This document shows positions 14,859 through 39,971 of a stretch of DNA of 64,000 nucleotides, piece after piece. Positions within the stretch are counted from its first letter, which is position 1, and each line of letters begins with the position of its first letter. Source of the DNA: Rhodothermales bacterium (GTDB taxonomy: Bacteria; Bacteroidota; Rhodothermia; Rhodothermales; Bin80); the NCBI GenBank assembly GCA_951812585.1, contig OX638318.1, positions 524,819 to 588,818 on the forward strand, given 5' to 3'. Under the pieces are notes generated by a model. That model was not told the origin of the DNA, made no database searches, and saw only the letters and a list, made by a program, of their open reading frames with translations. Made by a program: the position numbers and the translations under genes.

Positions 14859-14862
14859 ATCC

Positions 14863-19970: not shown

Positions 19971-20005
19971 GGCCTCCCCTTGCACCTGTGGGGTGCACCA
20001 GTCCC

Positions 20006-24036: not shown

Positions 24037-25317
24037 CTATCGGAGCAGAGCCAGAATCACCTGCAGCACACGGACAGCCTGCTCCTGGTGTATGTATGCG
24101 CCGCTTTCGTGCACCACGATGTGCGTACCGCTCCTCTCCGCTGTCCACTTCCGGTGCAGACCAATCCACGCCGCTCGTCCCGCATCGCCCTCGCCCACCC
24201 AGCGGGGCGCTTCGGAAGCACGGGCCGACGTCAGCACAGTCACAGGGATGTCGCCAGACCCATCCATGCCCGGCATGGATCCTGATTCCAGAATTGCTGC
24301 ATACGCGCTGAATTCTGCCTGCAGCACCGCGGGAAGATTCTGCTGCATAGCCTTGCGCCGCTCCCAGTAAGCAAGCCACGCAGACCTGTCCCACTCCTGC
24401 CACATCGCATGCTGCGATTCAAGGTGCGGGTCAACCAGCACCAGCGCCTTGACCGACGCCCCGTATAGCGCGGCAAAACGCCGCACATACAAGGCCCCTT
24501 CTGCATGCCCTACCAACACGTACGGAGGCGCGATACCAGCTTCACGCAGCAAGCCGCGCAGCTCAACGGCAATCTGCTCGGGAGAACGCGGCGCATCGGT
24601 CGGCTCAGAGTACCCCAACCCTGCACGGTCGTACGATACCACACGCACATGCTGTGCCAGAAGCTTCTGCAACTGTTCCCAGGAGGTCAGATTGTCGCCC
24701 AGCCCGGCTTCCAAAACCACCGTCACGGGACCTTCACCTGCGACCACCAAGTTGGCCCTGCGCCCATGCACGACCACATTCTGTCCGAGCGGATACGTGT
24801 CTGAAAGGCTGGGCAATGCGTCCGAAGGCACAGCCTCAGTCCACCCGGCGATGCTTTCGATCGTCTCAGCATGGAGTGGTATCGCATCAACATCGGAGCC
24901 CGGAGGCGCCATCACGATACCGCCAAATCCGCCCCATGGATCCATGCAGGCACCCTGGAACACCCCGTCATCCAAGCGAGCCAATGAGCACGCAAGTTCA
25001 AACGACGGCTCCCACGTAAAGTGCAGACTGTCGCGCGTGGCCCGTATATGATCAAACGCAAACGGGCCGTACCCCTCCACGACCATGGAAATCTCCACTC
25101 CATTGGCCTGATTGCGCACCTCGTAAACTACCTCCATGCTTCTGCCCGTCAGATGAATGATCCGACCCACCCAATCGCCATCCGCGATTGGCTGGGCTGC
25201 TGCAGGCAAAACACACGCAGCCAGAATTACCACAACAGTTGCGCCGACCTTCCTTATGCTACACACGCCTTCTACGCATGCCCTTAGGCATCCACTCATC
25301 AAAGACAGTTGGGGCAT
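24037..25317 (-). CDS. alpha/beta-hydrolase-fold protein lacking catalytic Ser and His (probable pseudoenzyme)
   Basis: A 426-residue exported protein. After a signal peptide (GATVVVILAACVLPAAAQ) comes a beta-rich N-terminal domain of about 150 residues, then an alpha/beta-hydrolase domain with the clear family pattern VVLEAGLGDN, VVSYDRAGLGYS and VLVGHAEGALYVRRFA. The nucleophile position in GxSxG is Ala272 (codon at 24502-24504), and the C-terminal position where such enzymes have Gly-His is Ala407 (codon at 24097-24099, context ESGAYIHQEQ). Both catalytic residues are therefore missing while the fold is intact. The start ATG at 25317 lies one base after the TPR gene stop; an ATG at 25299 is an alternative. 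It ends the CRTAC1-TPR chain. A binding or regulatory role is more likely than hydrolysis. Confidence 0.8.
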   Translation of the reverse strand: MPQLSLMSGCLRACVEGVCSIRKVGATVVVILAACVLPAAAQPIADGDWVGRIIHLTGRSMEVVYEVRNQANGVEISMVVEGYGPFAFDHIRATRDSLHFTWEPSFELACSLARLDDGVFQGACMDPWGGFGGIVMAPPGSDVDAIPLHAETIESIAGWTEAVPSDALPSLSDTYPLGQNVVVHGRRANLVVAGEGPVTVVLEAGLGDNLTSWEQLQKLLAQHVRVVSYDRAGLGYSEPTDAPRSPEQIAVELRGLLREAGIAPPYVLVGHAEGALYVRRFAALYGASVKALVLVDPHLESQHAMWQEWDRSAWLAYWERRKAMQQNLPAVLQAEFSAYAAILESGSMPGMDGSGDIPVTVLTSARASEAPRWVGEGDAGRAAWIGLHRKWTAERSGTHIVVHESGAYIHQEQAVRVLQVILALLR

Positions 25318-25318
25318 T

Positions 25319-26575
25319 TTACTCGGCAGGCATGGCATCCAGCTGTGCAAGATTGCGGCGCGCTGTGGCGTTGCCTGGATCCAAAGCCAAGGCCTTCTCC
25401 CATACTTGGCGCGCCTCCTGCGTGCGGTCCTGATTCGCATACGCAACCCCCAGTCCAACCCAGGCCGCCACCATGGTGGAATCGTTTAGCAGAATCATCT
25501 CAAACAGGCTCGCCGCTTCCTGTGCATCCCCATTCTGAAGTTGCAGAAACGCCAGGTTGTTCTGAATGCTCAGCCATATCCCCAGCGGCATATCCCGGGC
25601 CGCAGCGTTCTTGAACGCTTCAATAGCACGCCCATATTGCCCACTCTGACGCAGCAAGTCCCCCAGCCTGATCCAGTTGTCCAGCATGTCGGGATCTTGA
25701 TTGATCGCGTCCTCTGCCTCGGAGATGGCTTGCGCCTGCTGCTGCGCGACATCCGCACGTTCAAAGAACTCCCGCGCATCCTCCTCTCGCCCAAGCCGCA
25801 TGTATACCTGTCCGAGGTTGGTTTGTGCACCCTGATGCCACCGCCAGGCCGCTGCCACAGGCTCCAGATAGGGCAACGCCTTCTCTGGCTGCTCCAAACG
25901 GTGGTATTGGCTGCCCACGATATACTGATAGTCCAGGTCGTGGGGCCGTAGCGCCAGACCCTGCAATGACAGCGCAAGCGCCGCTTCCAGGTCTCCCGCC
26001 TCCTCCTCCAGCTGTCCGAGCCACATATACGTAGTCGCGTGCGTGCTATCCATCGCGAGCGCCATAAAATATGCCGTACGCGCACTGTCCGGCTCGCCCA
26101 ACTTGGCATACGCGCGGCCAAGCTCGTGATACAATGTGGCCGTGCCGCCGACCTCTTTCTCCTCCTCGCGGTACAAATCGATAGCACTGCGAAGCCGGCC
26201 GCGCCGATAAGCATTCAGGCCCATGTTGTGGCGCGCACCCGGGTACCATGGATCAAGTTCCAGCACGGTTTCATAGGCCGCCTGCGCCACATCAGGCCGG
26301 TTCAGCCGCGTATAGATGGCACCCCGCAGAAAATGCAGGTCTGCCAGATCGGGAGCCCGTGCCTCCACGCTGTCGGAATAAGCCAGCGCCAAGTCATAGA
26401 GTCCATTTTCGTGGGCGCGCTGCCCCTCGATGAGTAGCTGTGCAACGTCCGCTGGCAGCATGGCGCGCTGCGCTTCGGTGACGGAGCGTTGCTCACCCTG
26501 GCACCCGAAGAGCAGCGTTGCAATAGCCATTGCCGCAGCGAATCCTGCATGGCGCAAACCCGACCGGTATGACAT
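25319..26575 (-). CDS. TPR-repeat lipoprotein
   Basis: A 418-residue protein with a signal peptide and lipobox LLFGC (C25), followed by tandem tetratricopeptide repeats across nearly the whole length, for example LHFLRGAIYTRLNRPDVAQA, ELGRAYAKLGEPDSARTAYF and WLGQLEEEAGDLEAALALS. The start at ATG 26575 is chosen for the lipobox; in-frame ATGs at 26629, 26665 and 26737 would add an unlikely N-terminal extension. It resembles the neighbouring TPR protein at 26743, sharing the order of the LHFLRG, ELG/QIGRVYARLG and LDYQY/DYQYR segments, so the two are probably paralogues. It should face the periplasm or outer surface as a scaffold for protein contacts. Its stop nearly touches the hydrolase-like gene. 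Confidence 0.87.
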   Translation of the reverse strand: MSYRSGLRHAGFAAAMAIATLLFGCQGEQRSVTEAQRAMLPADVAQLLIEGQRAHENGLYDLALAYSDSVEARAPDLADLHFLRGAIYTRLNRPDVAQAAYETVLELDPWYPGARHNMGLNAYRRGRLRSAIDLYREEEKEVGGTATLYHELGRAYAKLGEPDSARTAYFMALAMDSTHATTYMWLGQLEEEAGDLEAALALSLQGLALRPHDLDYQYIVGSQYHRLEQPEKALPYLEPVAAAWRWHQGAQTNLGQVYMRLGREEDAREFFERADVAQQQAQAISEAEDAINQDPDMLDNWIRLGDLLRQSGQYGRAIEAFKNAAARDMPLGIWLSIQNNLAFLQLQNGDAQEAASLFEMILLNDSTMVAAWVGLGVAYANQDRTQEARQVWEKALALDPGNATARRNLAQLDAMPAE

Positions 26576-26742
26576 TACAGGCGCTGAAAACGCGGCACGG
26601 GGCACTTCACAACGTTGCGACCGCTCCATAGAATAGCGACCCTTCGGCCTGACTAGACGGGACATGACAAGTGTCGGCAAGGACCCTTTCGCAGCCAAAA
26701 CTTCAGCGCTAAAGATATTCAATACGGGCTTATGCATCGATG

Positions 26743-27717
26743 CTATTGACTGGTCGACATCAGCTGACGGGCAATCCGAAACGCTTGACGGGCCTCGTCA
26801 AGCTGGCCCGCCTGCTCGTACAGCAAGGCTAGCACGATCCACTCATCCTGCCCCTCCGGCGTGTGCTGCGCAGCATACCTGGCCAGCACGATGTCCGAAG
26901 CTAGCGCTTGCAGGCTGTCGGTAGCATCCAGCAGCGGAGCGCCCTCAGCGGTACGCCCTAGTGCGATCAGCGTCCTCCCCAGGTTGTAGTGCGCGCCGGT
27001 GTGCCATGGCTGCGCTGCAATGGCCGCGCGCAGAGGCGCTACAGCCGCCTCCAAGTTGCCCATGCGATAGTGCAGCGCGCCCATGCGATACTGATAGTCC
27101 GGGTGGTCAGGATCGAGTGCGCTGGCACGCTCGGCCGCTGCCAAGGCTTCCTCGAATCGACCTTCCTCCTCCGCAAGCTCCGACATCCACCCCCAGGCCT
27201 GATCATTTGCTGAATCGTTGCCAATAGCACGCTCATACGCAATACGCGCACTGTCCGACACGCCCAGGCGCGCATATACCCGGCCAATCTGCGCCCATAC
27301 CGCACTGCTGCTGACAGAATCTGCATGCGCACCGAGCGCCTTTTGCTCTTGGAAGTAGTACGAAAGCGCGGCGCGGTTTTGGCCCAGGAAGAATGCGTTG
27401 TTGCCCAATCGATACGCGGCGGTCGGGTAACGCGGATCGAGTGCCAAGGCGCGGGTGAAGGCCGCCTCCGCCTCCTTGAATCGATACAGCGTGGAGAGCA
27501 TATCGCCGCGCAGAAAATGCAAGCGTGGATTGGCGGGCGCGAGCACGATGGTACTATCCAAGAGGGCTAGCGCACGTACAAACTGTTCATGCTCGGACGC
27601 TTCCTGAAAGGCCCAAAGCAATTCTCGTGCTTCCGGGCTTAGCATTGCCGGCGCTTCGGCCTGACGGCACGCACCCAGCAGTACCAGTGCCAAACAGGCC
27701 TGTAACGCAATGTGCAT
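26743..27717 (-). CDS. TPR-repeat lipoprotein
   Basis: A 324-residue lipoprotein (lipobox LLGAC, C17) made of tetratricopeptide repeats, including LHFLRGDMLSTLYRFKEAEA, QIGRVYARLGVSDSARIAYE, WGWMSELAEEEGRFEEALAA and YQYRMGALHYRMGNLEAAV. The start ATG at 27717 overlaps the upstream CRTAC1 stop as TAATG, a strong sign of translational coupling. The next gene downstream begins after 168 bases. The coupling of TPR lipoproteins with CRTAC1 proteins suggests that they form a surface or periplasmic assembly; the function is unknown. Confidence 0.88.
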   Translation of the reverse strand: MHIALQACLALVLLGACRQAEAPAMLSPEARELLWAFQEASEHEQFVRALALLDSTIVLAPANPRLHFLRGDMLSTLYRFKEAEAAFTRALALDPRYPTAAYRLGNNAFFLGQNRAALSYYFQEQKALGAHADSVSSSAVWAQIGRVYARLGVSDSARIAYERAIGNDSANDQAWGWMSELAEEEGRFEEALAAAERASALDPDHPDYQYRMGALHYRMGNLEAAVAPLRAAIAAQPWHTGAHYNLGRTLIALGRTAEGAPLLDATDSLQALASDIVLARYAAQHTPEGQDEWIVLALLYEQAGQLDEARQAFRIARQLMSTSQ

Positions 27718-29384
27718 TATTGCTCGACGATTTGGACCACCTGGTTGATGGCAATCGGCCCTTCGCGATATACCGCGCCGTTCGGCCAGTACACCCACAG
27801 GCTGTCTACGACGGGCACCGCGCCCAGCCCAAAATGGGGCCACTGCTGCGACTGCGAAAGGTAACTGGCCCCCGCACGCACTTCGCGCTCCTGGTGGCGT
27901 CCGCCCGCCAATACGACAACCCGCGCGCCCACTCCATCGCGGTTGCTGGCCGTGCCCTCCAGTCGCACTTCCAGATAACCGCCGCCGGGCGTGTCATTGC
28001 GCCACAGGTGTGCGGGACCACCATTCTCAGTGAAGAGCACATCGAGGTCACCATCACGGTCATAATCACCATACGCCGCACCGCGTCCGACGAATCCGCG
28101 TGTAAGCAGCGGATGTGACGACGCCGACAGCTCCGCAAACAGGCCGGCCCCCTGGTTGATGTAGAGCTGGGGGCGCTGCCGGTAGGTGATGCCTTCTTCC
28201 ACCAGACCGATCTCTTCGATGATGTGCCCGTTGGCGGTGAACAGGTCCAGGTCACGGTCACGGTCTACATCGAAAAGAAACAGGCCGAACGTCAACGTAC
28301 GCAGGCTGGGACGACCTATCTGCGACACCGCGGCGCGATCCACAAAGAAACCGTTCTGCGTGTGGCGATACACACCGACCATCTCAGCAGTGAAATGCCC
28401 GACGAAAAGCGTGACCTCACCCGTCTCGTCCACGACGCCGATGTCCAGCCCCATGCCGGCACGCGCGCGCCCATTCTCATCAAAGGCAATACCGCTGTAG
28501 ACCCCCTTTTCGACGAAGGTGCCATCACCCTGGTTTTCGAAGAGCAGGTCCCGTTGCGTGTCGTTGGCGACGATAAGGTCCGACCACCCATCCCGATTAT
28601 AGTCCACGCTCAAGGCTCCCAGCGTCTTACCCGGGGCCGTATCAAAAACGCCTGACTGCCGTGTAAACGTACCGTCGCCGCTGTTTCTGTAAAAGGCACC
28701 CGACAGGCCATTGTACAGTTCCGGCGTGCAGTAGGCCTTGCGATCTCCTACGCGCGTGCACACAATGTCTTTGTCCGGGCCCCAATCCACATAGTTGCCT
28801 ACGTACAGGTCCAGAAAGCCATCTCTGTCCGCATCGACGAATACCGCCGCGGTACTCCAGGCGGCCTCGTCGGCGAGGCCTGCAGCTGCTGCCACCTCCG
28901 TGAAAACGCCGTGGTCGTTGCGCAGCAGCAAATTCTCAAAGAGTGCGGTCACAAAAACGTCAGGGTCTCCATCATTGTCGTAATCCGCGGATGTGATCCC
29001 GAAGGCATACGACCGCAGCGCACCGAGGCCGGCTGCTTCTGTGACCTCTTCAAAGGAAGTGCTGTCCACATTGCGATACAGCCTTAGCGCGGGCGGAGCG
29101 AACTCGCTTCGCGAAGGAAAAGGATTGCCGCCAACAAGCAGGATGTCCAAGAGGCCATCCCCATCATAGTCAAGGAAGCCTGCACCAGCGCCCATGGTTT
29201 CCGGAAACCATTTCTGCCCGAATGCGCCCGTCAAGTGCTGGAAGCCCCCTAGCCCCGCCTGCAGGGTCACATCCTCGAACGCGACCGACGGCAGTTCAGA
29301 CGGCGCCTCATTCACGACAGTTTCGTCGGGCGCCCGGCAGGCTGCCACGCCCGCCAGCAGCACTATGCACACCCAAGGGCACAT
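27717..29384 (-). CDS. CRTAC1 family lipoprotein (FG-GAP/VCBS repeats, ASPIC-UnbV domain)
   Basis: A 555-residue protein with lipobox GVAAC (C16). It has a beta-propeller built from FG-GAP/VCBS-type repeats carrying calcium-loop motifs (DYDGDGLLDI, DYDNDGDPDVF, DADRDGFLDLY, DYNRDGWSDL, DVDRDRDLDLF, DYDRDGDLDVL) and a C-terminal ASPIC/UnbV domain (GTASNRDGVGARVVV, then GASYLSQSQQWPHFGLG). The start at ATG 29384 is chosen because it leads straight into the signal peptide; a longer frame reaching 29528 would overlap the upstream gene within a repeat tract. It is the third of three paralogues in a row. The family is associated with the cell envelope, with integrin-like propellers; the ligand is not known. 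Confidence 0.88.
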   Translation of the reverse strand: MCPWVCIVLLAGVAACRAPDETVVNEAPSELPSVAFEDVTLQAGLGGFQHLTGAFGQKWFPETMGAGAGFLDYDGDGLLDILLVGGNPFPSRSEFAPPALRLYRNVDSTSFEEVTEAAGLGALRSYAFGITSADYDNDGDPDVFVTALFENLLLRNDHGVFTEVAAAAGLADEAAWSTAAVFVDADRDGFLDLYVGNYVDWGPDKDIVCTRVGDRKAYCTPELYNGLSGAFYRNSGDGTFTRQSGVFDTAPGKTLGALSVDYNRDGWSDLIVANDTQRDLLFENQGDGTFVEKGVYSGIAFDENGRARAGMGLDIGVVDETGEVTLFVGHFTAEMVGVYRHTQNGFFVDRAAVSQIGRPSLRTLTFGLFLFDVDRDRDLDLFTANGHIIEEIGLVEEGITYRQRPQLYINQGAGLFAELSASSHPLLTRGFVGRGAAYGDYDRDGDLDVLFTENGGPAHLWRNDTPGGGYLEVRLEGTASNRDGVGARVVVLAGGRHQEREVRAGASYLSQSQQWPHFGLGAVPVVDSLWVYWPNGAVYREGPIAINQVVQIVEQ

Positions 29385-29439
29385 GCGTGCTCTTCGGCGT
29401 TGCCTGCAATGGCCCATTCCTGCCAGCAAGACGCGCATT

Positions 29440-31176
29440 CTAGGGTACATGCGTACTTCCCTCCATAGCATGCGCGCCTTCCTCAGCACGCGTGCCTCTC
29501 TCCGCAGCATGCGTACGACCCTCCACAATCTTTATTTCACTGTTGATCCCCACGGCCGTTATTCGATCTACGACGCCGCTGGGCCAATGTACCACCAGGC
29601 TGTCAGGGCGTGCGGTTTCGCCGAAGCCGAAGGTGGCTACGGCCTCCAGGTGCGACAAGTAGCTGGACCCGGCCCTGAGCTGACGGTACTGCCGCAGCGT
29701 GCCGCTGTGCACAACAACGAGGGCACCGTAACCATCCCGGTTGCTCGTGAGCCCCTCCAGGCGCACACGCAGCCAGCGTCCACCTTCCAATTCGTTGCGC
29801 CAAAGATGCGCCGGACCGTTGTTCTCCGTGATAAGCACATCAAGATCGCCATCGCGGTCGTAGTCTCCATAGGTAGCCCCGCGAGCGACTATCGCCTGCG
29901 CAAGTGGGCCGTCCGCAGGAGCCTCCGCAAAACGGCCATCACCGCCGTTGAAAAACAGCTGAGCCGGCTGCCGAAACGTTATGCCCTCCACGATCCGCTC
30001 TATATGCGTTTGGACATGCCCGTTCGCTACCAAAAGGTCCAGATCCGCATCCAGGTCCACATCGAACAGCATCAGCCCAAAGGCGAGCGTCTTGAGCGTC
30101 GGCCGACCGACGAGAGACGCAGCCGCCCGATCCATAAACAGACCACCACCCGTATGACGGTACACGCCCACCATCTCCTCTGAAAAGTTGCCGACAAACC
30201 AGGAAGGCTCGCCCGTGGAATCTACCACGCCGATATCGATGCCCATGCCTGCCCGCGGAATCCCATGCAGATCATACGCAATGCCGCTGCGAATGCCGGT
30301 TTCGGTGAAGATGCCATCGCCACCATTCAAAAAGAGCATGTCCCGCTCGGTATCGTTGGCTATCGCCAAGTCCGGCCACCCATCCCCATTGGCGTCAAAG
30401 GTGGCAACGCCCAGCGTCTTATCGCGCGACGCCTCAATGCCGGACAAGAACCCCGCCTCGCGCGTCCAAAGGGTAAAAGTGCCATCCCCCTGATTGCGGT
30501 AAAAGCGGCCGGCGATGCCATCATAAAGCTCCGGGGTGCAGTATACCTTTTCCCCTTCAAAGCCGCAGTAGATGTCCTTCTCCGGAGACCAGTCCACATA
30601 CGTGCCGACATACAGGTCGAGCCAACCGTCATTGTCTGCATCAAAGAACAGCGCCGAGCTGCTCCACTCCGCAACGCTGCCGACACCTGCAGCCTCGCCT
30701 ACTTCAGCGAAGACCCCACCCTCGTTGCGCAAGAGCAGATCGCGGTACAAGGTCGTCACATACATGTCGGAATCGCCATCATTGTCATAGTCTCCAACCG
30801 TCACGCCGAAGGCGTAGGCCGCGAGTGCGGCCAGGCCCGCTTCGCTGGTCACCTCCCGAAACGTCCCATCCTGCTGGTTGCGAAACAAGCGCACGCACGG
30901 ACCGCGGTAGCCCGCCTCGTTCGCAAAAGCACCACCCGCAACCAGTACAATGTCCAGCCAGTCATCGCCATCATAGTCGAAAAAGCCGGCGCCCGCACCT
31001 ACAATCTCGGGCGCCCAGGCCTCGCCAAAACCTCCATTGGTGTGTGCAAAGCCCCCCAGACCCACAAGTTCGGTGACCTCTGCAAACAGCGCCTGTGTCT
31101 CCGGCATCGGACTCCTGCAGGCAGCACACAGCAGTAGCCCGGCTACAACCGGGGGGCAGCTAATCTTCGCCTTCAA
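29440..31176 (-). CDS. CRTAC1 family lipoprotein (FG-GAP/VCBS repeats, ASPIC-UnbV domain)
   Basis: A paralogue of about 578 residues with the same plan: lipobox LLCAAC, propeller repeats (DYDGDDWLDIV, DYDNDGDSDMYV, DADNDGWLDLYVGTYVDW, DANGDGWPDLA, DVDLDADLDLL, DYDRDGDLDVL) and an ASPIC/UnbV domain (LTSNRDGYGALVVV, GSSYLSHLEAVATFGFG). No ATG is suitably placed before the signal peptide. TTG at 31176 or 31179, inside the end of the upstream gene, gives a normal lipoprotein signal (LKAKISCPPVVAGLLLCAAC) and a 17-20-base overlap. The N terminus is therefore a best guess. The C-terminal tail beyond UnbV is a low-complexity heptapeptide-like repeat absent from the other two copies. Confidence 0.85.
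   Translation of the reverse strand: MKAKISCPPVVAGLLLCAACRSPMPETQALFAEVTELVGLGGFAHTNGGFGEAWAPEIVGAGAGFFDYDGDDWLDIVLVAGGAFANEAGYRGPCVRLFRNQQDGTFREVTSEAGLAALAAYAFGVTVGDYDNDGDSDMYVTTLYRDLLLRNEGGVFAEVGEAAGVGSVAEWSSSALFFDADNDGWLDLYVGTYVDWSPEKDIYCGFEGEKVYCTPELYDGIAGRFYRNQGDGTFTLWTREAGFLSGIEASRDKTLGVATFDANGDGWPDLAIANDTERDMLFLNGGDGIFTETGIRSGIAYDLHGIPRAGMGIDIGVVDSTGEPSWFVGNFSEEMVGVYRHTGGGLFMDRAAASLVGRPTLKTLAFGLMLFDVDLDADLDLLVANGHVQTHIERIVEGITFRQPAQLFFNGGDGRFAEAPADGPLAQAIVARGATYGDYDRDGDLDVLITENNGPAHLWRNELEGGRWLRVRLEGLTSNRDGYGALVVVHSGTLRQYRQLRAGSSYLSHLEAVATFGFGETARPDSLVVHWPSGVVDRITAVGINSEIKIVEGRTHAAERGTRAEEGAHAMEGSTHVP
29443..29523 (-). repeat. degenerate 21-bp tandem repeat at CRTAC1 gene junction
   Basis: About four degenerate units of 18-21 bases encode the C-terminal tail of the second CRTAC1 protein: EGRTHAA, ERGTRAE, EGAHAME and GSTHVP, then stop. 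The core CATGC recurs in most units. An 18-base near copy of the last unit (29440-29457, three differences) lies at 29374-29391 and overlaps the start codon of the next gene. Confidence 0.6.
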
Positions 31177-32830
31177 CAAGATGTATTTCCTGATTGGCAG
31201 CAACGGGACCGAAGACCTGCACCGCACCCAAGGGCCAGTGCACCCACACGCTGTCGGCCTGCTCGGCCTGGCCCAACCCAAAGGTCACCACAAATTCATT
31301 CTGCGACAAGTAGCTCGACCCGCTCCGTATGCGCCGCTCCTGCCTTGCTCCCTGCACCAGCGCGACGATGCGCGTACCCAGTCCATCGCGATTGCCGCGC
31401 TTCGCCTCCACGCCAATGCGCAGGAAGTTGTTGCCCTTGTGCTCGTTGCGCCACAGATGTGCGGGACCATCATTCTCCGTGATCAGAATGTCCACATCGC
31501 CATCCTTGTCGTAGTCCGCATAGGCCGCGCCGCGCGCCACCATCAGCGCCGTCAGAGGCAGCGTGATTGCTGGAGCAACCTCGTTGAAGAAACCCTGCCC
31601 GACATTTTCAAACAGCTGCGAGCGCTGCCTATACGTGATCTTGTCCTGGTCCACCAGCCGATCTGGATACACATGGCCGTTCGCAGAAAACAGGTCCAGG
31701 TCGCCATCCAGCTCCACATCAAAAAGAAACAGGCCAAACGCCAACGTGTTCAGGCTGGGCTGGCCGATCCGTGACGTAGCCGCACGATCCAGAAACAAGC
31801 CCTGGCCGGTGTGACGATAAACGCCGATCATCTCCTCCGAGAAATTACCCACGAATATCGAAGGCTCGCCCGTGGAATCTACCACGCCGATATCGATGCC
31901 CATACCTGCACGCGCTTCGCCGTGTTCGCTGAAAGCGACGCCGCTCAGCACGCCCCGCTCTGTGAAGGTGCCGTCCTGATTGTTGTGAAACAGCAAATCA
32001 CCCTCACCGTCGTTGGCCACAACAAAATCGCTCCAGCCATCCCGATTGTAGTCAAACTCCGCCATGCCGAGCGACTTGCCATACGCAGAGTACGTCCCCG
32101 CTTCAACAGTCACGTCCTGAAATACGCCGGTCTCACTGCCCAAGTAGAAGCGGCTAGGCATTCCGCTGTAGTCCGCGGGCACGCAATACAGCTTGATCTG
32201 CGCCCCTTCTGGACAGAACTTGTCCGTCTCAGGCGTCCAGTCAGCATAGTTGCCCACGTACACATCCAGCCAGGAATCATTGTTGGCGTCAAAAAACAGC
32301 GCGGAGCTGCTCCACTCGTCGTGCTCCGAAAGGCCCGCCGCCTTCCCCACCTCAGTGAAGAAGCCGCCCTCATTCCTAAAGAGCATGTTGTGGTTCAGGT
32401 TCGTCAGCAGGAAGTCGGTATCACCATCATTGTCGTAGTCCGCCGCGGCCATTCCTATGGTGTAAGCATGAACATCGGCCAGACCCGCCTGTGCGGTCCG
32501 ATCCTCAAACGTGCCGTCCCCACGATTTCTAAACAGCCATAACGGACGATAGCCTACCTTCGGCGCGCGATTCCATTGCCCGCCCCCCATCAGCATGATG
32601 TCCAGCCAGCCATCCCCGTCGTAATCGATCCAGCCGCCCCCGGAGCCCATTTGCTCGGCGTAGTACTTGTCACCCGCCGCACCATTGTCGTGCACAAAAG
32701 CGCCGATGCCCGCCTGGCGTGCTACATCCGCAAAGGCAATGATTGGCGCAGTCTCCGGCGAAGATGTTGTAGACGAACAGCCCGCGCCGATGCCCACTGC
32801 AGCGGCCAGTCCGAGGATGCTCCACTGCAT
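31160..32830 (-). CDS. CRTAC1 family lipoprotein (FG-GAP/VCBS repeats, ASPIC-UnbV domain)
   Basis: A 556-residue first member of the triplet. The signal peptide is MQWSILGLAAAVGIGAGC, with lipobox IGAGC (C18). The propeller calcium loops are DYDGDGWLDIM, DYDNDGDTDFL, DANNDSWLDVYVGNYADW, DYNRDGWSDFV, DVELDGDLDLF and DYDKDGDVDIL; the ASPIC/UnbV end contains RGNRDGLGTRIVA and GSSYLSQNEFVVTFGLG. The start ATG at 32830 lies only about 20 bases after a terminator-like hairpin that follows the PorV-like gene. Transcription must therefore read through that hairpin or start close to the gene; no obvious promoter box was seen. The gene order of three CRTAC1, two TPR and one hydrolase-like gene is continuous. 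Confidence 0.88.
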   Translation of the reverse strand: MQWSILGLAAAVGIGAGCSSTTSSPETAPIIAFADVARQAGIGAFVHDNGAAGDKYYAEQMGSGGGWIDYDGDGWLDIMLMGGGQWNRAPKVGYRPLWLFRNRGDGTFEDRTAQAGLADVHAYTIGMAAADYDNDGDTDFLLTNLNHNMLFRNEGGFFTEVGKAAGLSEHDEWSSSALFFDANNDSWLDVYVGNYADWTPETDKFCPEGAQIKLYCVPADYSGMPSRFYLGSETGVFQDVTVEAGTYSAYGKSLGMAEFDYNRDGWSDFVVANDGEGDLLFHNNQDGTFTERGVLSGVAFSEHGEARAGMGIDIGVVDSTGEPSIFVGNFSEEMIGVYRHTGQGLFLDRAATSRIGQPSLNTLAFGLFLFDVELDGDLDLFSANGHVYPDRLVDQDKITYRQRSQLFENVGQGFFNEVAPAITLPLTALMVARGAAYADYDKDGDVDILITENDGPAHLWRNEHKGNNFLRIGVEAKRGNRDGLGTRIVALVQGARQERRIRSGSSYLSQNEFVVTFGLGQAEQADSVWVHWPLGAVQVFGPVAANQEIHLVEGED

Positions 32831-32852
32831 GCAAAACGCGTATACGCAAAGA

Positions 32853-32887
32853 AGCGGAGAATCCGGCGCAGTGCCAGATTCTCCGCT
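32853..32887 (-). terminator. intrinsic terminator-like hairpin after the PorV-like gene
   Basis: AGCGGAGAATC (32853-32863) and GATTCTCCGCT (32877-32887) pair over 11 bp; after one mismatch, three more pairs (GGC with GCC) extend the stem. Read on the minus strand, the stem is followed by CTTCTTTGCG, a modest T-rich stretch, consistent with termination downstream of the gene at 32937. Confidence 0.6.
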
Positions 32888-32898
32888 CTTAGAGTGCT

Positions 32899-32922
32899 GC
32901 GGCCCAGCCTTCGCTGGTCCGC
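32899..32922 (-). terminator. second hairpin after the PorV-like gene
   Basis: GCGG-CCAGC and GCTGG-CCGC arms (one internal mismatch) close on a four-base loop (CTTC on the plus strand). It lies just past the stop at 32937 and 11 bases before the larger hairpin at 32853-32887, so the two probably act together. Confidence 0.4.
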
Positions 32923-32936
32923 TTTGCAAGCCCAAC

Positions 32937-33998
32937 CTACAGACCGAGGTTCAGTCCAACACGATGAACCGCACCGAACAGACCAAAGTCGGTAAACGCG
33001 TAGTCCGCGCCGATGCGGAAGTCGCCAGCGCCCACCTTGACGCCTGCACCTGCGCTGAAGCCTTGCTCTTCGCTTACGGCTGCCTGCTCAAATCCGCCCC
33101 GTAGCGATGCAATGCCCATAAAGGTGTACTCCAGCCCAAAGCGCACATGCTCTGAAAAGTCACGCGGACGCTGGGCGTCCACATGAAGCTGCAGGCGGTG
33201 CATGTCTGGATCAAGAGCAGAAAAGTCCACCAGATTCATTGACGCGCCGATCTGGAATGTGAGCGGCAATTCAAACCGCTCCCGCACGTACGTCTGCTCC
33301 GCAGAAAAATTGCGCGCCATCATGGCGATGGTCAGACTCCTGAAGCCCGTGGAGTACAGCACGCCAAAGTCGAATGCCACCGTTTGTGTGCTGTAACTGT
33401 CGGTCGCAATAGTCGCTCCCGTGTCGAAATCCTGGCTGGTAACAAAATCGCTGCCCAGATCCTGGAAGGCCAGCTTGATGTTGGCCCCCGCCGAAAAGCG
33501 ATCACTGAACGATCGGGCATAACCTAAACCAACGGCCATCGCCGAAGGCGAGTAGACGCCCGTGTCTACGAAGCCAAAATCGTTGTTGGCGCGAATCGTA
33601 CCCATGAAGTCGCCGTAGTCGACAGCGACGACAGAAACGCCCACAACGCCGAGATTGCCGCCCCCAGGCCTGAAGGCAACACTTGCCTGCGTGTAGCTGA
33701 TGTCGGCGATGAACTGCAGGATACCACCCCCAGCCGAAAACCGGCCCGGCATGAAGGCCATGCTAGCCGGATTGTAAAACATCGAGGTGGATGACCCTTG
33801 GAACTCCGCGGTGAGTGCAGAACCCAAGGCCGATGCCCGCGGATCCACGGAGGTGCTCAGAAACTTCATGCCCGTCTGCGCACGCTTGTCCGTGGTGACC
33901 TCTGTATCCGGCGTCAAGCCCTGCTGGGCAAACACGCTCGGAGCCAGGCCCAAGAGAAGCACAAGGGCCAGCGAGGTTATGCTATAGCGCTTTTTCAT
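32937..33998 (-). CDS. PorV/PorQ family outer membrane beta-barrel protein
   Basis: A 353-residue protein with a signal peptide (residues 1-25, ending SVFAQQ) and the start of the PorV/PorQ (UPF0164-like) pattern: TGMKFLSTSVDPRASALGSA, SMFYNPASMAF. The rest alternates polar and hydrophobic residues as in a membrane beta-barrel. PorV-type proteins shuttle T9SS substrates at the outer membrane; here the gene sits directly downstream of a T9SS-sorted protein and a TonB receptor, so a dedicated paralogue for that operon is likely. The start at ATG 33998 gives a normal signal peptide. Whether it is the main PorV or a specialised paralogue cannot be told from this window. Confidence 0.82.
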   Translation of the reverse strand: MKKRYSITSLALVLLLGLAPSVFAQQGLTPDTEVTTDKRAQTGMKFLSTSVDPRASALGSALTAEFQGSSTSMFYNPASMAFMPGRFSAGGGILQFIADISYTQASVAFRPGGGNLGVVGVSVVAVDYGDFMGTIRANNDFGFVDTGVYSPSAMAVGLGYARSFSDRFSAGANIKLAFQDLGSDFVTSQDFDTGATIATDSYSTQTVAFDFGVLYSTGFRSLTIAMMARNFSAEQTYVRERFELPLTFQIGASMNLVDFSALDPDMHRLQLHVDAQRPRDFSEHVRFGLEYTFMGIASLRGGFEQAAVSEEQGFSAGAGVKVGAGDFRIGADYAFTDFGLFGAVHRVGLNLGL

Positions 33999-34031: not shown

Positions 34032-34052
34032 GCTTTGGCCTGAGGCCAAAGC
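34032..34052 (-). terminator. intercistronic hairpin between the T9SS-substrate and PorV-like genes
   Basis: GCTTTGGCC (34032-34040) and GGCCAAAGC (34044-34052) pair perfectly over 9 bp with a three-base loop. It lies between the stop at 34060 and the start at 33998. No T-run follows, so it may act as an attenuator or as an mRNA-stabilising structure. Confidence 0.45.
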
Positions 34053-34059
34053 TTTGTTG

Positions 34060-36378
34060 TTAGCGGATTACCGTGAACTTGAGTATGGACTCATCCCCAT
34101 TGGAATTGTCCGTGATGACCGCGATGTAAATACCGCTGACCAGCAGCTGGCGTGAGGTCGTGGTCAAATTCCAAAGCTCATCTCCACTGCCATCGTCATG
34201 CACGATGGTGTGGACAAGCTCCCCGATCTCTGTGAAAATCTTGATGGTGCAGTCGCCCGGAATGTTGAAGAACGCTACGCGATCCTCCTGCTCAAACCGC
34301 ACTGAATTGTCTGCGCCCAGGTTCACAGGGTTGGGCACAATACGTGCATCAGCCACCGTGCCGGTGTTGCCGTACGGCGGACGCTTGAGGTTTACAGGCT
34401 GATAGGTCTGCGTCAGCGAGCGCGAGCTCCGAAGCGGGAAACCACCGGGCGTGCCGTTGATGCCATCCGGATCGTTCGGTTGCGGTCCGCCCACCGCCTG
34501 CAGATAGTAGTAGTAGTCTGTGCCACGTACCGGATCCGTATCGGCGTACGAAGTCGCGCTGGCATCCAGCTCTGCAATCATCTCATAGCCGCAACGAGTC
34601 TGTCCGGGCGATCCATTTACGATCCCGACAAAGTTGGCATTGTCCGTGCATCCCGTGGTGTACAGGTGGTCCTCCCACAGATCCGTTCGATACAGCACCC
34701 ACTTCGTCCGCGACGGCCCACCGGATGGCGGCGTCCATTCTATGTCCACCTTGTCGGGACGCCCGAACACCGAGAATTTTTGCGGCGCATGCGGCGCCTC
34801 CGGTATAGGATAGGTGGACATGTTGTTGCTGGCGGCGTACAGATTGATACCGCGCTGCAGGGTCTGGAACAGTGAATCACGCGAAGTCATCGCCCACTGA
34901 TTCTTGGTCATCTCCTCCAGGCCCCAGCCAAAGGTGTCAAACATGCCGTCACCGTCCATGTCCAACTGATTGATGGCGTAGTTGAAGTCGCCCGTCATGA
35001 TCGTGCCATCCATATTGGCGTCATACTGGATCAACCTCGTGTCCCGTGCGGTGCCGCCCCGCTTGTATGCGCGGCCAATCTTGTAGTCCGCATCAAACCC
35101 AAGACCGCCCACCGCCTCAACAACCACAATCCGCACACTCTCGCCCGGGGCCATGTCGTATGGGCCGTACGCCGTGGTCACGGCATGTCCGCCCTGCTTG
35201 CCCGTAGAGGCATCGTTCTTTGCCTCCCAGAATATGCCACTAGGCTCAATGCGGTCCGCATAGTGCGGAAACATATGCTGGGAACCACCGGTGATTCGAT
35301 CCGGGTTTTCGCGCGTACGTATGCCCCACTCGTAATAATCCTCGTGCGGCGAGCCATCGGCTGTCAGCGCCTCGTCCGAGTCCATAAAGCCCATGGTGCG
35401 CGGCTGGCAGGTGTCTATCGTGGCCGGCGTACAGCGAATGTAAGTGGTGTTGGTCGGCGAGGCATCCGCGTGGATGGTCGTACGCCCGATGAACGAGCTG
35501 CCCGAAAGCCGCCCGAGCGAATCTCCAGATGCGACCCAGGTGTGCTCATTGAATACGGGCGCGCCGATGCGATCATACTGGGACTGCGCCTCTGGGTCCA
35601 CGCCAATCCACAAGTACTGCGCCGTAAACGAGATCGGATAGTCCGCGTGGCCATCGCCGACCACATCCACCATGCTGAACTTGCCCCAGACCTGGCCGCC
35701 GCTCACCGTCCATGCACCCTGGAGGCTGCCCCGCCAGCGGTGAATACGGAAGAAGTAGGTATCGGTCAGCGTCTGGTTGGGTAGCTCAATGTCCTCATCG
35801 TCGTCCGTGTTGCCAGTGTTGGTGTACACGTACTCGATGATGTGGTAGTCGTCATGGGCCTGATTCACCCAGGCGTATGCTTTGCGATCTACCGTGATGC
35901 CGATATAGGTGTTGTGGATGTTGTGCACCATCCGGTCGGCTGCCATGCCCGGATCAATCTCATCGATAACGGCCACGTTATCGAATGAAAGGGCACCATC
36001 CACCTCGACGATCGTGTCCTCTGTCTTGCTCTTCAAGACATTCTGTACCGGAAAGGTTACATCCGCGCCCGCCGTACGCGGGCCGATGCGGGCCACGAAG
36101 TACGGAAACGTCTGCCCGTTCGGGTCTGTCCAGTTTTTTGTGCCGAGCCAGAACGCTTTCGCACGAAAATGGCTGCTGTTGCGCAAAATGGCTGGCCACT
36201 CCATACCGTCGGCAGCCGAACTGTTGCCCTCATGCTGGGCACCAGACTCGGTGTATGTGCCATGGAACGTGCCGATGTCCAGCCACTGAGCCGTGAACTG
36301 TGCTTGCGCCGCAGTCGCTCCGAAAAGGAGGAAGAGCGCAGCAATGGCAAAGTTTCGGAAGTAGCAAGTGCTGTTCAT
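34060..36378 (-). CDS. large secreted protein with T9SS-type C-terminal domain
   Basis: A 772-residue protein with a signal peptide (ALFLLFGATAAQAQ) from the ATG at 36378. The central part is not assigned to a family I can name; it contains an Asp-rich calcium-loop-like segment (QLDMDGDGMFDTFGWG) and a fibronectin type III-like domain before residue 690 (DKVDIEWTPPSGGPSRTKW). The C-terminal 85 residues match a type IX secretion sorting domain (VRFEQEDRVAFFNIPGDC, IKIFTEIGELVHTI, LVSGIYIAVIT). Its place after a TonB receptor matches the usual position of a SusD-like partner, but it has no SusD features. It is probably a surface-exposed partner of the receptor. Confidence 0.8.
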   Translation of the reverse strand: MNSTCYFRNFAIAALFLLFGATAAQAQFTAQWLDIGTFHGTYTESGAQHEGNSSAADGMEWPAILRNSSHFRAKAFWLGTKNWTDPNGQTFPYFVARIGPRTAGADVTFPVQNVLKSKTEDTIVEVDGALSFDNVAVIDEIDPGMAADRMVHNIHNTYIGITVDRKAYAWVNQAHDDYHIIEYVYTNTGNTDDDEDIELPNQTLTDTYFFRIHRWRGSLQGAWTVSGGQVWGKFSMVDVVGDGHADYPISFTAQYLWIGVDPEAQSQYDRIGAPVFNEHTWVASGDSLGRLSGSSFIGRTTIHADASPTNTTYIRCTPATIDTCQPRTMGFMDSDEALTADGSPHEDYYEWGIRTRENPDRITGGSQHMFPHYADRIEPSGIFWEAKNDASTGKQGGHAVTTAYGPYDMAPGESVRIVVVEAVGGLGFDADYKIGRAYKRGGTARDTRLIQYDANMDGTIMTGDFNYAINQLDMDGDGMFDTFGWGLEEMTKNQWAMTSRDSLFQTLQRGINLYAASNNMSTYPIPEAPHAPQKFSVFGRPDKVDIEWTPPSGGPSRTKWVLYRTDLWEDHLYTTGCTDNANFVGIVNGSPGQTRCGYEMIAELDASATSYADTDPVRGTDYYYYLQAVGGPQPNDPDGINGTPGGFPLRSSRSLTQTYQPVNLKRPPYGNTGTVADARIVPNPVNLGADNSVRFEQEDRVAFFNIPGDCTIKIFTEIGELVHTIVHDDGSGDELWNLTTTSRQLLVSGIYIAVITDNSNGDESILKFTVIR

Positions 36379-36404
36379 GTGCTTGCTGTTTTGCTTGAAT
36401 GGAT

Positions 36405-36438
36405 TGCACCCGGCGGCACACAAGCGCCGCCGGGTGCA
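36405..36438 (-). terminator. intercistronic hairpin after the TonB receptor gene
   Basis: TGCACCCGGCGGC (36405-36417) and GCCGCCGGGTGCA (36426-36438) pair perfectly over 13 bp with an eight-base loop. It begins 8 bases after the receptor stop and ends 27 bases before the next start. No T-run follows. A hairpin here could lower expression of downstream genes relative to the receptor, or stabilise the upstream mRNA. Confidence 0.5.
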
Positions 36439-36445
36439 CGATCAT

Positions 36446-39400
36446 TTAGAATGTGAGCCGGACACCCATCGTGACGCGCCGGATGTTCAGGAAGGTGTTG
36501 AAGCGAAGGTTCGGCATGTCAATGTATGCCTTGTCCTCCAGCATCTGATCCACCTCGTTCTGTGGCACCTCGTCCCAACTGGAGCCGTTCCACCGCGAAT
36601 AGGTTTCGGTATCGGCGGCCCAATACCACGCCACCGAACTAGGTGCCTGGACACTCGTCAATGAGCCCACGGCCTCTACGGGCTGGTAGTCCACATCTGG
36701 ATGGCGGAATACACCCGGCTTGTCGTTGCCGGGTACCCAGATGTAGGGAAACCCGCCTGACTGGACCTTTTCCGAATAGCTCAGGTCAGCGTCGATGGCA
36801 TTCAGCTCATCGTAGATGTCAGCCGGCAGGTGGAGTGACCACATGTAGCGGTCGAAATCCCGGTTATCGGGATGAAAAGCCGTGGCGCTGTAGAGGTGAC
36901 GCCGGTTGAAGACATTGTCAACATCGAGAAAGAGCTGGGCAGCACCGAACTGCGTGTTGATATGCTTCGTGAAGCGCAGGTCAAACCCGACAAAGCTCCG
37001 CCAGCGCACATTCTCCTGAAGTTCTGGCGGTGCAGCGGCACCCCCCGACCAGGTCCACTGCGTACCGGCGCGCCATTCGCCCAGCAGGCTGATGCGCCAG
37101 TCCCCGAGAAGATCTCCGTTGAGCACGCTCGGCATCCACTTGGTCGGCGTGAGAATAAGCAGGTTTCCGCGCGCAAATGGCTCTGCCAGTGGTGCGCCAA
37201 TGCGATAATCCGTGGATGTCCGCAGGTAGTTGCGCTGCTCAAACGTGTTCTCGTTGAACTGACCATAGCCGAAGTTGCCGCCCTTGGTCTGCAAGTAGGT
37301 GTAGTTCAGGAATCCACGCACCCACGACCCGCGGGTCTTCGTCAGCGTAACCTCTGCGCCACGCACATCCCTGTAGTTCCAAGGCTCGCGCGTAGTGTAC
37401 TGAACCACGCTACCGAGCGAACGATAGGTCACGCCACGCGGCTGATTCTGGATGTCGCGATAGTAGCCGGAGATGCGCAGCAGGAACTGGTCCGCAATGT
37501 TCTGGTCGAATCCCAATTCGTATGCTACTGTTAGGGGCATCGGATGGCTGGGATTGCCTATCTGATCAATGCCGCCGTTGCGGGACTGCTGAATGCCAAA
37601 CACGTCAAACGGATTGAGCATCTGGCGGAAATGCCCGTAGTTGAAGTACAGTTTGCTGTCCAGCGTGATGGGGAACGATATACCCAGGCGCGGGCTGACA
37701 AAAATCTGCGCTGCTGGGTCCTCCTTGTCCAAGAGCTCATCCAGCCCCTCCACCTGCTGTCGGAAGGCGGCATCATAGGGGTTTTCTGCGACCCACCACG
37801 GCGAGTTCGCATCAAAGAAGTCTAACCTGAGGCCCAGGTTGGCAATCATGCCCTGGAATTCCAGCTTGCCCTGTGCATAGGCGGCACCCTGGATGGGCGT
37901 CCGCTCGAAGGGATAAGCAGCCTCCGGCTCCGGACCGACCAGCGCCAGGTTGACGCGCTGGTAGTTGAGGTCGTAGTCGCTGATGATCAGCTCCGCGCCC
38001 GTCTTGAGCTGAAGGACACGGGTAAGCTGGCTTGTAAGATCGAAGCGCCCCGTAAAAACGCTCACGTCAGAGGTGTCACGCGTCTTGACCCAGTGTCCGC
38101 CTGTCGTTTCAGCACCGCCGATCAGATTGCCACCCTGACCCAGGAATCCAAACGGTTCGTCACCAACCACATAAGGCGTGATGACGCCGTCGCCATTGAG
38201 GTCCTCACGACCGCCAAATTCCGTCAGCCGATCATAATTGTCCAGTCCCGCCTCCGTGGGTCGCCCCAGGTTGTTCGTATAAGGTACCTGAACGAAGTTT
38301 CCGTTTTCGTCGATGTAGGACCCATCCCGCAGGTTGGGGAAATGACTGCGGTACTTCGTCGCAAGATTCTGCAGGCTGACTTCGTAAAATGTGCTTGCAC
38401 TCAGCGTATGCGTGAAGGTCGCACCAAAAAGGCCATGGTCGATGTCCGCAAGCGGGAAAGCTCCGTCCGAAAGGATCACACGACCCCTGCGATTGATGCC
38501 ATCCACTATTTCTGCACCCGCACCCCACCAAGGGTAACTGGGCAGATTGCCGCTGTACATACGCAAATCCGCGGAGCCCTGCGACTGATTGATACCGCGC
38601 TCCGTGCCCTGCATGGCGTTCAAGGTCAGCTTCATGCCGCGGCGCACGTTGGAGACCAGTTTGGCCTGAAATGTGTTGCTGTTGAAGGCCTCGCGCGACT
38701 GCGGGTACAAATAGGCCCGCTGTGTGCCGCGATAGGAAACCAGAAAACGCAGGTCTCCGAGCTGGGAACTGAGTCCCGGCACTAGCGGACCGCTCACACT
38801 TATGTCCGCCTCGTAGTCGGGAACCGTGATTGCATTGTCCTTGCGATGCGTGTGCTTGAAATAGTCCTGCATGTCCTGTGCAGTGACATCAAACCCTTCG
38901 TCATTCCTTAGCCGCTCCGCAAGCGTGGTCCAGCCCTCAAAGCCGTTGTACTGGAGCTGCTTGTACGAATCCCAAGCACCGCTCTCGGTGCCGTCCATCG
39001 CAACATCGGGATCCAGGAATGGCCGGATAAACCAGTTATCGCAGTCGCCGTACACCCGCGTGCTGAAGTCACAATCGTCCAGGTTTGTGCCTCCTAGCCC
39101 CTCAAGAGATTTTGGCTGCGCCGGGATATAGCGCATGAGCGCGTCTACGTTGTACCGCGTGCGCGAAGGCTCCTTGGAAGTCACATTGACGATGCCGCTT
39201 CGCACATTCCCATACTCCGCATTGAATCCACCCGTCTGCACCTGCACCTCCTCCAGCGAAGTGTAGCTGATGTTGGTAAACGGCTGATGCGACCGGCCCG
39301 TCCGCAGATTCATGCCATCGACTACGAAGGCGACCTCACTGAGGCCGCCGCCGCGAACGCGCAAACCCGGCTCAATGCCGGCCTGAAGGTCCAGAACTTC

Positions 39401-39841
39401 CGTCACACCTGCCACGGGCAGGTCTTCGAACGCTTCAGCATTCAAGCTGGCGACGTTGGCCGACACATCTAACTGCACAATCGGACGCTCACTCACGACA
39501 ATAATCTCATCCAGCCCGATCTCTTGCTCTCGCATTTCGATGTCAAGGGTCGCCGTCAAACCCGTCGACACCCGCACGCCGGTGATGGATTCTTCGGTGT
39601 AGCCGACAAACGAGATCCGCAGCGTATACGTACCCGGCCGTACGTTGTTGATGAAGTAGAATCCCTCAACATCGCTGGCCGTACCCTGCTGCGTCTCCAC
39701 GATCAGAATGTTCACGCCCGGGATCGACTCGCCCGTTGCGGCATCTGTCACCGTGCCGGCGATCTTCCCCCGCTGTGCAAGTGCGGGCGATGCTATAAGA
39801 AGTAATACCGCGAAAAGGCCCAGTAGCTGTGCATGCCTCAT
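36446..39841 (-). CDS. TonB-dependent receptor with N-terminal carboxypeptidase-like domain
   Basis: About 1131 residues. The signal peptide (GLFAVLLLIASPALAQ) is followed by a carboxypeptidase regulatory-like domain (KIAGTVTDAATGESIPGVNI, then GFYFINNVRPGTYTLRISFVGY), a plug domain (EVLDLQAGIEPGLRVRGGG, AFVVDGMNLR, EEVQVQTGGFNAEYGNVRSG) and a long outer membrane beta-barrel ending in NIRRVTMGVRLTF with a terminal Phe. No SusD gene accompanies it. It should import a TonB-energised substrate, possibly an oligosaccharide or peptide. The start at ATG 39841 (MRHAQLL) is preferred to one 15 bases upstream. A LacI-type operator and a TAnnTTTG-like promoter lie 130-190 bases upstream. Confidence 0.92.
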   Translation of the reverse strand: MRHAQLLGLFAVLLLIASPALAQRGKIAGTVTDAATGESIPGVNILIVETQQGTASDVEGFYFINNVRPGTYTLRISFVGYTEESITGVRVSTGLTATLDIEMREQEIGLDEIIVVSERPIVQLDVSANVASLNAEAFEDLPVAGVTEVLDLQAGIEPGLRVRGGGLSEVAFVVDGMNLRTGRSHQPFTNISYTSLEEVQVQTGGFNAEYGNVRSGIVNVTSKEPSRTRYNVDALMRYIPAQPKSLEGLGGTNLDDCDFSTRVYGDCDNWFIRPFLDPDVAMDGTESGAWDSYKQLQYNGFEGWTTLAERLRNDEGFDVTAQDMQDYFKHTHRKDNAITVPDYEADISVSGPLVPGLSSQLGDLRFLVSYRGTQRAYLYPQSREAFNSNTFQAKLVSNVRRGMKLTLNAMQGTERGINQSQGSADLRMYSGNLPSYPWWGAGAEIVDGINRRGRVILSDGAFPLADIDHGLFGATFTHTLSASTFYEVSLQNLATKYRSHFPNLRDGSYIDENGNFVQVPYTNNLGRPTEAGLDNYDRLTEFGGREDLNGDGVITPYVVGDEPFGFLGQGGNLIGGAETTGGHWVKTRDTSDVSVFTGRFDLTSQLTRVLQLKTGAELIISDYDLNYQRVNLALVGPEPEAAYPFERTPIQGAAYAQGKLEFQGMIANLGLRLDFFDANSPWWVAENPYDAAFRQQVEGLDELLDKEDPAAQIFVSPRLGISFPITLDSKLYFNYGHFRQMLNPFDVFGIQQSRNGGIDQIGNPSHPMPLTVAYELGFDQNIADQFLLRISGYYRDIQNQPRGVTYRSLGSVVQYTTREPWNYRDVRGAEVTLTKTRGSWVRGFLNYTYLQTKGGNFGYGQFNENTFEQRNYLRTSTDYRIGAPLAEPFARGNLLILTPTKWMPSVLNGDLLGDWRISLLGEWRAGTQWTWSGGAAAPPELQENVRWRSFVGFDLRFTKHINTQFGAAQLFLDVDNVFNRRHLYSATAFHPDNRDFDRYMWSLHLPADIYDELNAIDADLSYSEKVQSGGFPYIWVPGNDKPGVFRHPDVDYQPVEAVGSLTSVQAPSSVAWYWAADTETYSRWNGSSWDEVPQNEVDQMLEDKAYIDMPNLRFNTFLNIRRVTMGVRLTF

Positions 39842-39971
39842 AGCGCGTTCCTCCACATTGTTCTAGTTGCAGTTTTCAATCCCGCCCAGCCACCAGGGTT
39901 CCTTATGGTTGGCTCCATTTCGTAACTCACCAATCATAGGGTTCCCGGCACTCGGGCAAGACTGTTCGTCT

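Follow-up and report, generated by a model that had tools for sequence, protein, structure and literature searches.

A chain of CRTAC1, TPR and pseudo-hydrolase genes in Rhodothermales is part of a conserved locus with a TonB receptor and a PorV-family barrel

Six genes on one strand belong to a larger unit that begins upstream

Six genes lie in a chain on the minus strand of a 64,000-nucleotide stretch of DNA from a Rhodothermales bacterium (GenBank assembly GCA_951812585.1, contig OX638318.1, positions 524,819 to 588,818; hereafter called the window). They encode three CRTAC1 lipoproteins (C1, C2, and C3), two TPR lipoproteins (TPR1 and TPR2), and a secreted pseudo-alpha/beta-hydrolase (HYD). 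We found that the unit to which these genes belong is larger and starts upstream on the same strand, with the six genes at its downstream end. The full order is SSF-family symporter, TonB-dependent receptor, a predicted surface protein exported by the type IX secretion system (T9SS; protein T9S), a PorV-family barrel, the three CRTAC1 genes, the two TPR genes, and the pseudo-hydrolase (Table 1). Our best explanation, to which we give an even chance, is that the unit serves polymer capture and uptake in the manner of a SusCD locus or utilisome, with the CRTAC1 and TPR proteins acting as surface-binding and scaffold subunits. This explanation builds on the observed gene content, gene order, export signals, loss of the hydrolase nucleophile, and occurrence of the upstream genes beside polymer-degradation genes.

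The original prediction described six same-strand genes that mostly overlap or touch and regarded them as one envelope system. All six open reading frames (ORFs) were indeed found on the minus strand between positions 24037 and 32935, overlapping or touching. The TTG start of C2 at 31179 lies inside the preceding gene, a TAATG junction is present at 27717, and a 5-bp gap precedes the ATG at 26737. The first in-frame ATG of C1 is at 32830, which is the same end as was proposed originally. We set the start of HYD at the in-frame ATG at 25338; its ORF (24037-25458) opens with a TTG at 25458. As for the single envelope system, the six genes do form a conserved unit, but this set lacks the upstream core of TonB receptor, T9S, and PorV (hereafter the triad). 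Its putative character as a surface-bound assembly is read from signal peptides only.

The predicted protein families also agree with the original prediction of calcium-loop CRTAC1 proteins, TPR proteins, and a hydrolase. The FG-GAP and UnbV_ASPIC families scored above the Pfam cut-off in all three CRTAC1 proteins (56-63 bits versus 23.4), and many TPR families matched TPR1 and TPR2. A regular expression for calcium-type loops (D-x-[DN]-x-[DN]..D) matched five to six times in each CRTAC1 protein of the window. Furthermore, in an alignment of 21 CRTAC1 sequences, four of them from Acidobacteriota, neither the Asp positions of six loops nor two of the cysteines vary. Among the CRTAC1 and TPR orthologues of Rhodothermales, almost every one has a lipobox-like Cys, with a non-canonical position -3 in two of the window's CRTAC1 proteins (GAGC and CAAC). 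Based on signal peptide, conserved lipobox Cys, and TPR repeats, TPR1 and TPR2 are both predicted to be TPR lipoproteins. The HYD orthologues of the window's family begin with signal peptides that are mostly free of Cys.

HYD was described originally as catalytically dead, and the lost nucleophile supports this judgment across the group. The Ser of the G-x-S-x-G motif is missing in all 21 HYD sequences, being replaced by Ala in the window's family (GHAEG in the window itself), by Asp in family f12, and by Gly in family f15, while the nearest paralogues, four stand-alone hydrolases of the same order, keep it (GHSMG). The fold appears to be retained, given a structure model with a mean pLDDT of 84 and Foldseek matches to alpha/beta-hydrolases. 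The Asp in the f12 hydrolase (L111:16307-17686, plus strand; AHDAG) could in principle be a nucleophile of the dehalogenase or epoxide-hydrolase type, in which case the enzyme would have another chemistry rather than be dead.

Gene order is conserved across Rhodothermales families

Family labels such as f1 or f15 and genus labels such as g6 are arbitrary, and "all" or "every" refers to the loci that were fetched. Among 59 relatives searched, matches to HYD, TPR1, and CRTAC1 are adjacent in 16 of 16 genomes of the window's family. Gene maps revealed the order TonB-T9S-PorV-C1-C2-C3-(TPR2)-TPR1-HYD in every complete locus of this family, and the symporter stands in front in most of them. The CRTAC1-TPR core also occurs in seven other Rhodothermales families. 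Family f9 (three genomes, one cut before T9S) carries TonB-T9S-PorV-C1-C2-TPR1 without the hydrolase, and f15 (four genomes) carries the same order with it. In f12, T9S-PorV, C1-C2-TPR1, and the hydrolase are kept with insertions between them. Families f3, f6, f7, and f8 have PorV and then variant CRTAC1-TPR arrays, and PorV stands directly before CRTAC1-TPR in f6, f7, and one f3 locus. An order unique to this genome would have refuted the original prediction, and this is not what was found. However, the six-gene set is not a fixed one: TPR2 was detected only in genera g1 to g5 of the window's family and not in g6, there are only two CRTAC1 copies in f9, f12, and f15, and f9 has no hydrolase.

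A maximum-likelihood tree placed the proteins of the C1 slot and those of the C2 slot in separate clades. The CRTAC1 paralogues are therefore old and have retained their positions, because each clade spans f1, f9, and f15. Within the C2 clade, the branch uniting f9 and f15 falls just below the support threshold, and f12 is an exception in that its two copies group together. Gene order is retained at roughly 46-84% protein identity, both within the family and beyond it, and in all 24 top genomes a CRTAC1 match is found no more than about 1 kb from the best TPR match. This conservation of adjacency and order led us to reject a chance neighborhood. A scan of genome contigs with one TPR protein as the query returned two loci only. 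Second loci of the window's family have LacI regulator genes next to CRTAC1-TPR pairs.

CRTAC1-TPR pairs also extend to another phylum. On Acidobacteriota plasmids, a TPR gene lies directly beside CRTAC1 at three of four loci, a TonB-type receptor with a CarboxypepD_reg domain is nearby at three of the four, and glycoside hydrolases are nearby at all four. These neighborhoods include GH28, GH30, GH88, GH27, GH172, LacI, and fucP genes. Among class- and phylum-level CRTAC1 loci, some lie beside SusC-SusD genes (Bacteroidota) and others beside multihaem cytochromes.

Two other clusters in the window's own genome (L136, 1557000-1576900, and L137, 2452000-2471900) encode VCBS/CRTAC1 proteins of 1,134-1,320 amino acids, which are distinct from the short lipoprotein CRTAC1s. 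The L137 cluster adjoins a SusC-like receptor.

The upstream triad recurs with different cargo genes

Relatives of T9S were detected in 158 of 296 sampled genomes of the phylum at an E value of 1e-3, many of the weak matches covering the C-terminal domain alone. Where the T9S match is strong, the triad order TonB-T9S-PorV is present in 19 of 20 mapped loci, and the twentieth ends after T9S. None of these 20 phylum-level loci has a CRTAC1 gene after PorV. Outside the CRTAC1 lineages, the proteins after PorV that were tested mostly carry an IPT/TIG domain, some with additional propeller-repeat matches. Further downstream, some loci encode T9SS-exported GHL10 or NAGPA glycosidases, CBM48, a PfkB kinase, or an MFS transporter.

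The window's own genome has at least five further triads (L224-L227 and L231), with neighbors that include a sulfatase (L224), heparinase II/III-like and beta-helix proteins (L225), a subtilase (L226), and an amidase (L227). PorV-family genes number eleven in this genome, against a single detected SusD. Because of the recurrence across the phylum, the copies in the same genome, and their neighbors, the triad resembles a module of the outer membrane that serves polymer use and takes exchangeable cargo, of which the six genes appear to be one example. BLAST labels of "GHL10" in L205, L208, and L226 were not used as evidence, as Pfam finds in them the shared T9SS C-terminal domain only. The same doubt attaches to the other weak BLAST labels (L206, L207, and L224-L231), and the labels of L203 and L204 stand on BLAST only.

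Several features were predicted for the triad proteins of the window. The PorV-family protein exceeds the cut-off of the broader family model (Table 1) and falls under that of the PorV equivalog NF033710 (52 versus 250 bits). Likewise, the receptor scores 68 bits against the SusC/RagA model TIGR04056, whose cut-off is 368. T9S (787 amino acids) has no Pfam domain, and Por_Secre_tail was likewise not reported for it. By inspection it has a signal peptide, and its C-terminal domain resembles PorZ in both sequence and structure. Taken with the presence of SprA, the type IX translocon, in the genome (SprA_N match), these features make T9S a predicted type IX substrate. A search of PDB sequences with T9S gave no significant match. 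The predicted structure, a model of modest confidence (mean pLDDT of 68), has a sandwich-like N-terminal region, an fn3-like domain, and the PorZ-like sorting domain. VIA-align matched the N-terminal ~500 residues to the super-beta-sandwich region found in enzymes of GH94, GH116, and GH65 (Z of ~15 over 240-280 residues) and the C terminus to PorZ (Z of 11.6). Foldseek returned mainly fn3 domains and PorZ, and the sandwich likeness is clear only in VIA-align. The modeled fold fits a carbohydrate-related surface protein and reveals no function.

Hairpins occupy the gaps between the triad genes

Successive gaps of the unit contain predicted hairpins whose positions are kept between genomes while their sequences change. 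In the gaps after PorV, a stem as long as the native one was reached by at most 1 of 100 dinucleotide shuffles in 17 of 22 cases, and at least five T residues occur within the eight bases behind the hairpin in 7 of the 22. The same shuffle criterion holds for 12 of 20 gaps after TonB and 10 of 23 after T9S. These hairpins are possible transcript-processing or attenuation sites, and the one after PorV could set a lower expression of the CRTAC1 genes. Because this hairpin resembles a terminator, it is our main caution against calling the whole unit one transcript.

Table 1. Predicted genes and hairpins of the unit in the window
Feature	Position	Strand	Basis or remark
HYD, secreted pseudo-alpha/beta-hydrolase with N-terminal beta domain	24037..25338	-	Pfam Abhydrolase_1
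TPR1, TPR lipoprotein 1	25319..26737	-	TPR families; lipobox-like Cys conserved among orthologues
TPR2, TPR lipoprotein 2	26743..27717 (ORF to 27843)	-	ATG at 27717; Pfam TPR
C3, CRTAC1 lipoprotein	27717..29384 (ORF to 29528)	-	FG-GAP propeller and UnbV_ASPIC
C2, CRTAC1 lipoprotein, TTG start	29440..31179 (ORF to 31281)	-	FG-GAP and UnbV_ASPIC; slot common to f9 and f15
C1, CRTAC1 lipoprotein	31160..32830 (ORF to 32935)	-	FG-GAP and UnbV_ASPIC; slot common to f9, f12, and f15
PorV/C1 gap, long terminator-like hairpin	32831..32936	-	17 pairs
PorV/PorQ-family outer-membrane barrel	32937..33998 (ORF to 34049)	-	NF033709, 176 bits (cut-off 90)
T9S/PorV gap, 9-bp GC-rich hairpin	34032..34059		Reached by 14/100 shuffles in the window: weak here
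T9S, predicted T9SS-exported surface protein	34060..36378 (ORF to 36423)	-	PorZ-like C-terminal sorting domain
TonB/T9S gap, 15-bp hairpin	36379..36445	-	Reached by 0/100 shuffles
TonB-dependent receptor, CarboxypepD_reg domain and plug	36446..39856	-	Pfam
SSF-family sodium:solute symporter	40392..41993	-	Adjoins the TonB gene in most complete loci of the window's family

Beyond the end of the unit, the window carries a convergent LRR gene (21482-23629, plus strand). LRR genes convergent to the unit are also present in other genomes (L098, L101, and L118), some with a T9SS C-terminal domain. A sulfatase gene (16368-18116, plus strand) and an L-rhamnose isomerase-like gene (19988-21289, plus strand) also lie beside the unit in the window on the opposite strand. 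This neighborhood was not seen at the family's other loci, where the next gene, when identified, encodes an LRR protein. Planctomycete-type PSCyt1/PSCyt2/PSD1 (DUF1549/DUF1553) proteins alternating with DUF1501 proteins are encoded at 48-16371 (plus strand), together with a PSCyt1-DUF2231-LRR membrane protein.

A proposed polymer-capture locus and its alternatives

For the polymer-capture locus, we infer a complex, its surface exposure, its ligand class, and each step of a mechanism as follows. The TonB receptor would be the energised import pore. T9S, after export by the type IX system, would be held at the surface by its C-terminal domain, possibly through the dedicated PorV-family barrel, and act there as a binding lid or platform. 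The CRTAC1 calcium propellers and the TPR lipoproteins would form a lipid-anchored layer, in which a propeller face binds the ligand and the TPR proteins scaffold the receptor; this layer would replace surface glycan-binding proteins of the SusD/SusE type. The secreted hydrolase lacking its nucleophile would be a binder, and the product would enter the cytoplasm via the SSF symporter. Our best guess for the ligand class is polysaccharide.

Several points weigh against this explanation. The unit contains no depolymerase and no SusD, and the ligand need not be a glycan because peptidase or amidase genes accompany some of the sister triads. The fold match of T9S is partial and comes from the modest model described above. 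Transcription of the six genes may be partly separate from that of the triad, given the terminator-like hairpin in the PorV/C1 gap. Lastly, the CRTAC1-TPR clusters of f3 and f7 include a four-haem cytochrome-TPR protein.

This cytochrome invites a redox interpretation, in which the CRTAC1-TPR proteins work with haem proteins, such as multihaem cytochromes and MauG-type peroxidases, in the periplasm or at the surface, and the window's copy has lost its cytochrome. The idea merits consideration, as cytochromes appear repeatedly with CRTAC1 in sister lineages. Proteins of ~900 amino acids with four CxxCH motifs are encoded beside or near CRTAC1 in other Rhodothermales, at L130:715-3435 (minus), L125:11716-14724 (plus), L128:9527-12427 (minus), and L135:3014-5749 (plus). 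Two of these four were scanned with Pfam and matched Cytochrome_C554 and C-terminal TPRs, and inspection suggested N-terminal membrane helices. Such a protein also stands beside CRTAC1 in f8, multihaem cytochrome-like genes adjoin CRTAC1 at other Rhodothermales and class-level loci, and at one locus a MauG-type peroxidase gene (CCP_MauG) lies between SusD and CRTAC1. In other phyla, hydrazine-synthase-like genes are reported to be flanked by CRTAC1 genes (PMC12758564). However, none of the ten proteins of the window's unit contains CxxCH, and on this ground a haem role for the unit itself was rejected. Cytochrome genes are also absent from all examined loci of the window's family, and the four-haem-TPR homologue of the same genome (2550488-2553139) is about 2 Mb away, with no CRTAC1 match nearby. 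We thus consider a redox module unlikely. Adhesion or surface-layer assembly dependent on calcium, with CRTAC1 propellers as adhesins or matrix components carried by TPR scaffolds, and a TonB receptor that serves otherwise, would suit the intact calcium loops and the homology to human cartilage acidic protein 1 (structure 9etn). It is rather unlikely, since in two phyla these genes are consistently linked to TonB receptors and to catabolic genes, and LacI regulators adjoin CRTAC1-TPR pairs.

An accessory role in the assembly of outer-membrane proteins or lipoproteins, like that of the Bacteroidota BAM accessory subunits, is suggested by the FadL-related PorV-family barrel beside surface proteins. 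This arrangement resembles BamG-BamH, where a surface lipoprotein is held by BamG, a barrel of the FadL family (PMC12611786), and TPR proteins are frequent in assembly machines. However, the genome carries at least six triads with differing cargo genes, which fit substrate-specific loci better than a single assembly machine, and we regard this role as quite unlikely. It is hardly credible that the six genes are neighbors without a joint function. The PorV/C1 hairpin could end transcription, and TPR2, C3, and HYD vary by lineage, but gene order is retained at the divergence given above and C1 and C2 are orthologous slot by slot.

Returning to polymer capture, we tentatively propose, as something possible rather than probable, that the unit represents a class of polymer-uptake machine in the outer membrane of Bacteroidota that works without SusD. 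Such a machine would combine a TonB receptor and a T9SS-exported protein on its own PorV-family barrel with a ligand layer of CRTAC1, TPR, and pseudo-hydrolase proteins, and a related CRTAC1-TPR-TonB form would exist in Acidobacteriota. If true, this would provide a function for bacterial CRTAC1 (ASPIC/UnbV) proteins, which are widespread and for which we found no function in the literature searched. An operon with a TonB receptor, T9SS-exported protein, and PorV barrel offers a testable role for them. It would also suggest that an architecture for polymer uptake distinct from SusCD is used by many Bacteroidota and goes unrecognized by annotation pipelines.

Comparison with known systems

The original prediction knew of no described system with this composition, and our literature search, which covered sources other than subscription journals, likewise found none and no published description of CRTAC1-TPR-TonB loci. 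The closest functional parallel is with SusCD loci or utilisomes (PMC7618045), which share a CarboxypepD_reg TonB-type receptor, exported partners, surface lipoproteins, and an inner-membrane symporter; sister triads here adjoin glycosidase, heparinase-like, or sulfatase genes. In contrast, the unit has a T9SS-exported protein and a PorV-family barrel instead, and CRTAC1 and TPR lipoproteins in place of SusE and surface glycan-binding proteins. Profile searches detected no SusD among the ten proteins of the unit, the genome's only match being about 1 Mb away, and the unit has no glycoside hydrolase or lyase, only the hydrolase without a nucleophile. By these comparisons it is not a SusCD locus, as its receptor is under the SusC cut-off and it has neither SusD nor a depolymerase.

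The pairing of a PorV-family barrel with a protein carrying a PorZ-like C-terminal domain recalls the T9SS attachment complex PorV-PorZ, but the window's proteins fall under the PorV, PorQ, and PorZ equivalog cut-offs. The Acidobacteriota pairs share the FG-GAP/UnbV_ASPIC propeller beside a TPR gene and a TonB-type receptor. They differ in having a twin-arginine-like N terminus, whereas the unit described here has a lipobox, at least two CRTAC1 paralogues in fixed slots, and T9S and PorV. Finally, the TIG-type triads of other Bacteroidota have the same three upstream genes in the same order; there a TIG-domain protein follows PorV, whereas here the CRTAC1-TPR genes take that place.

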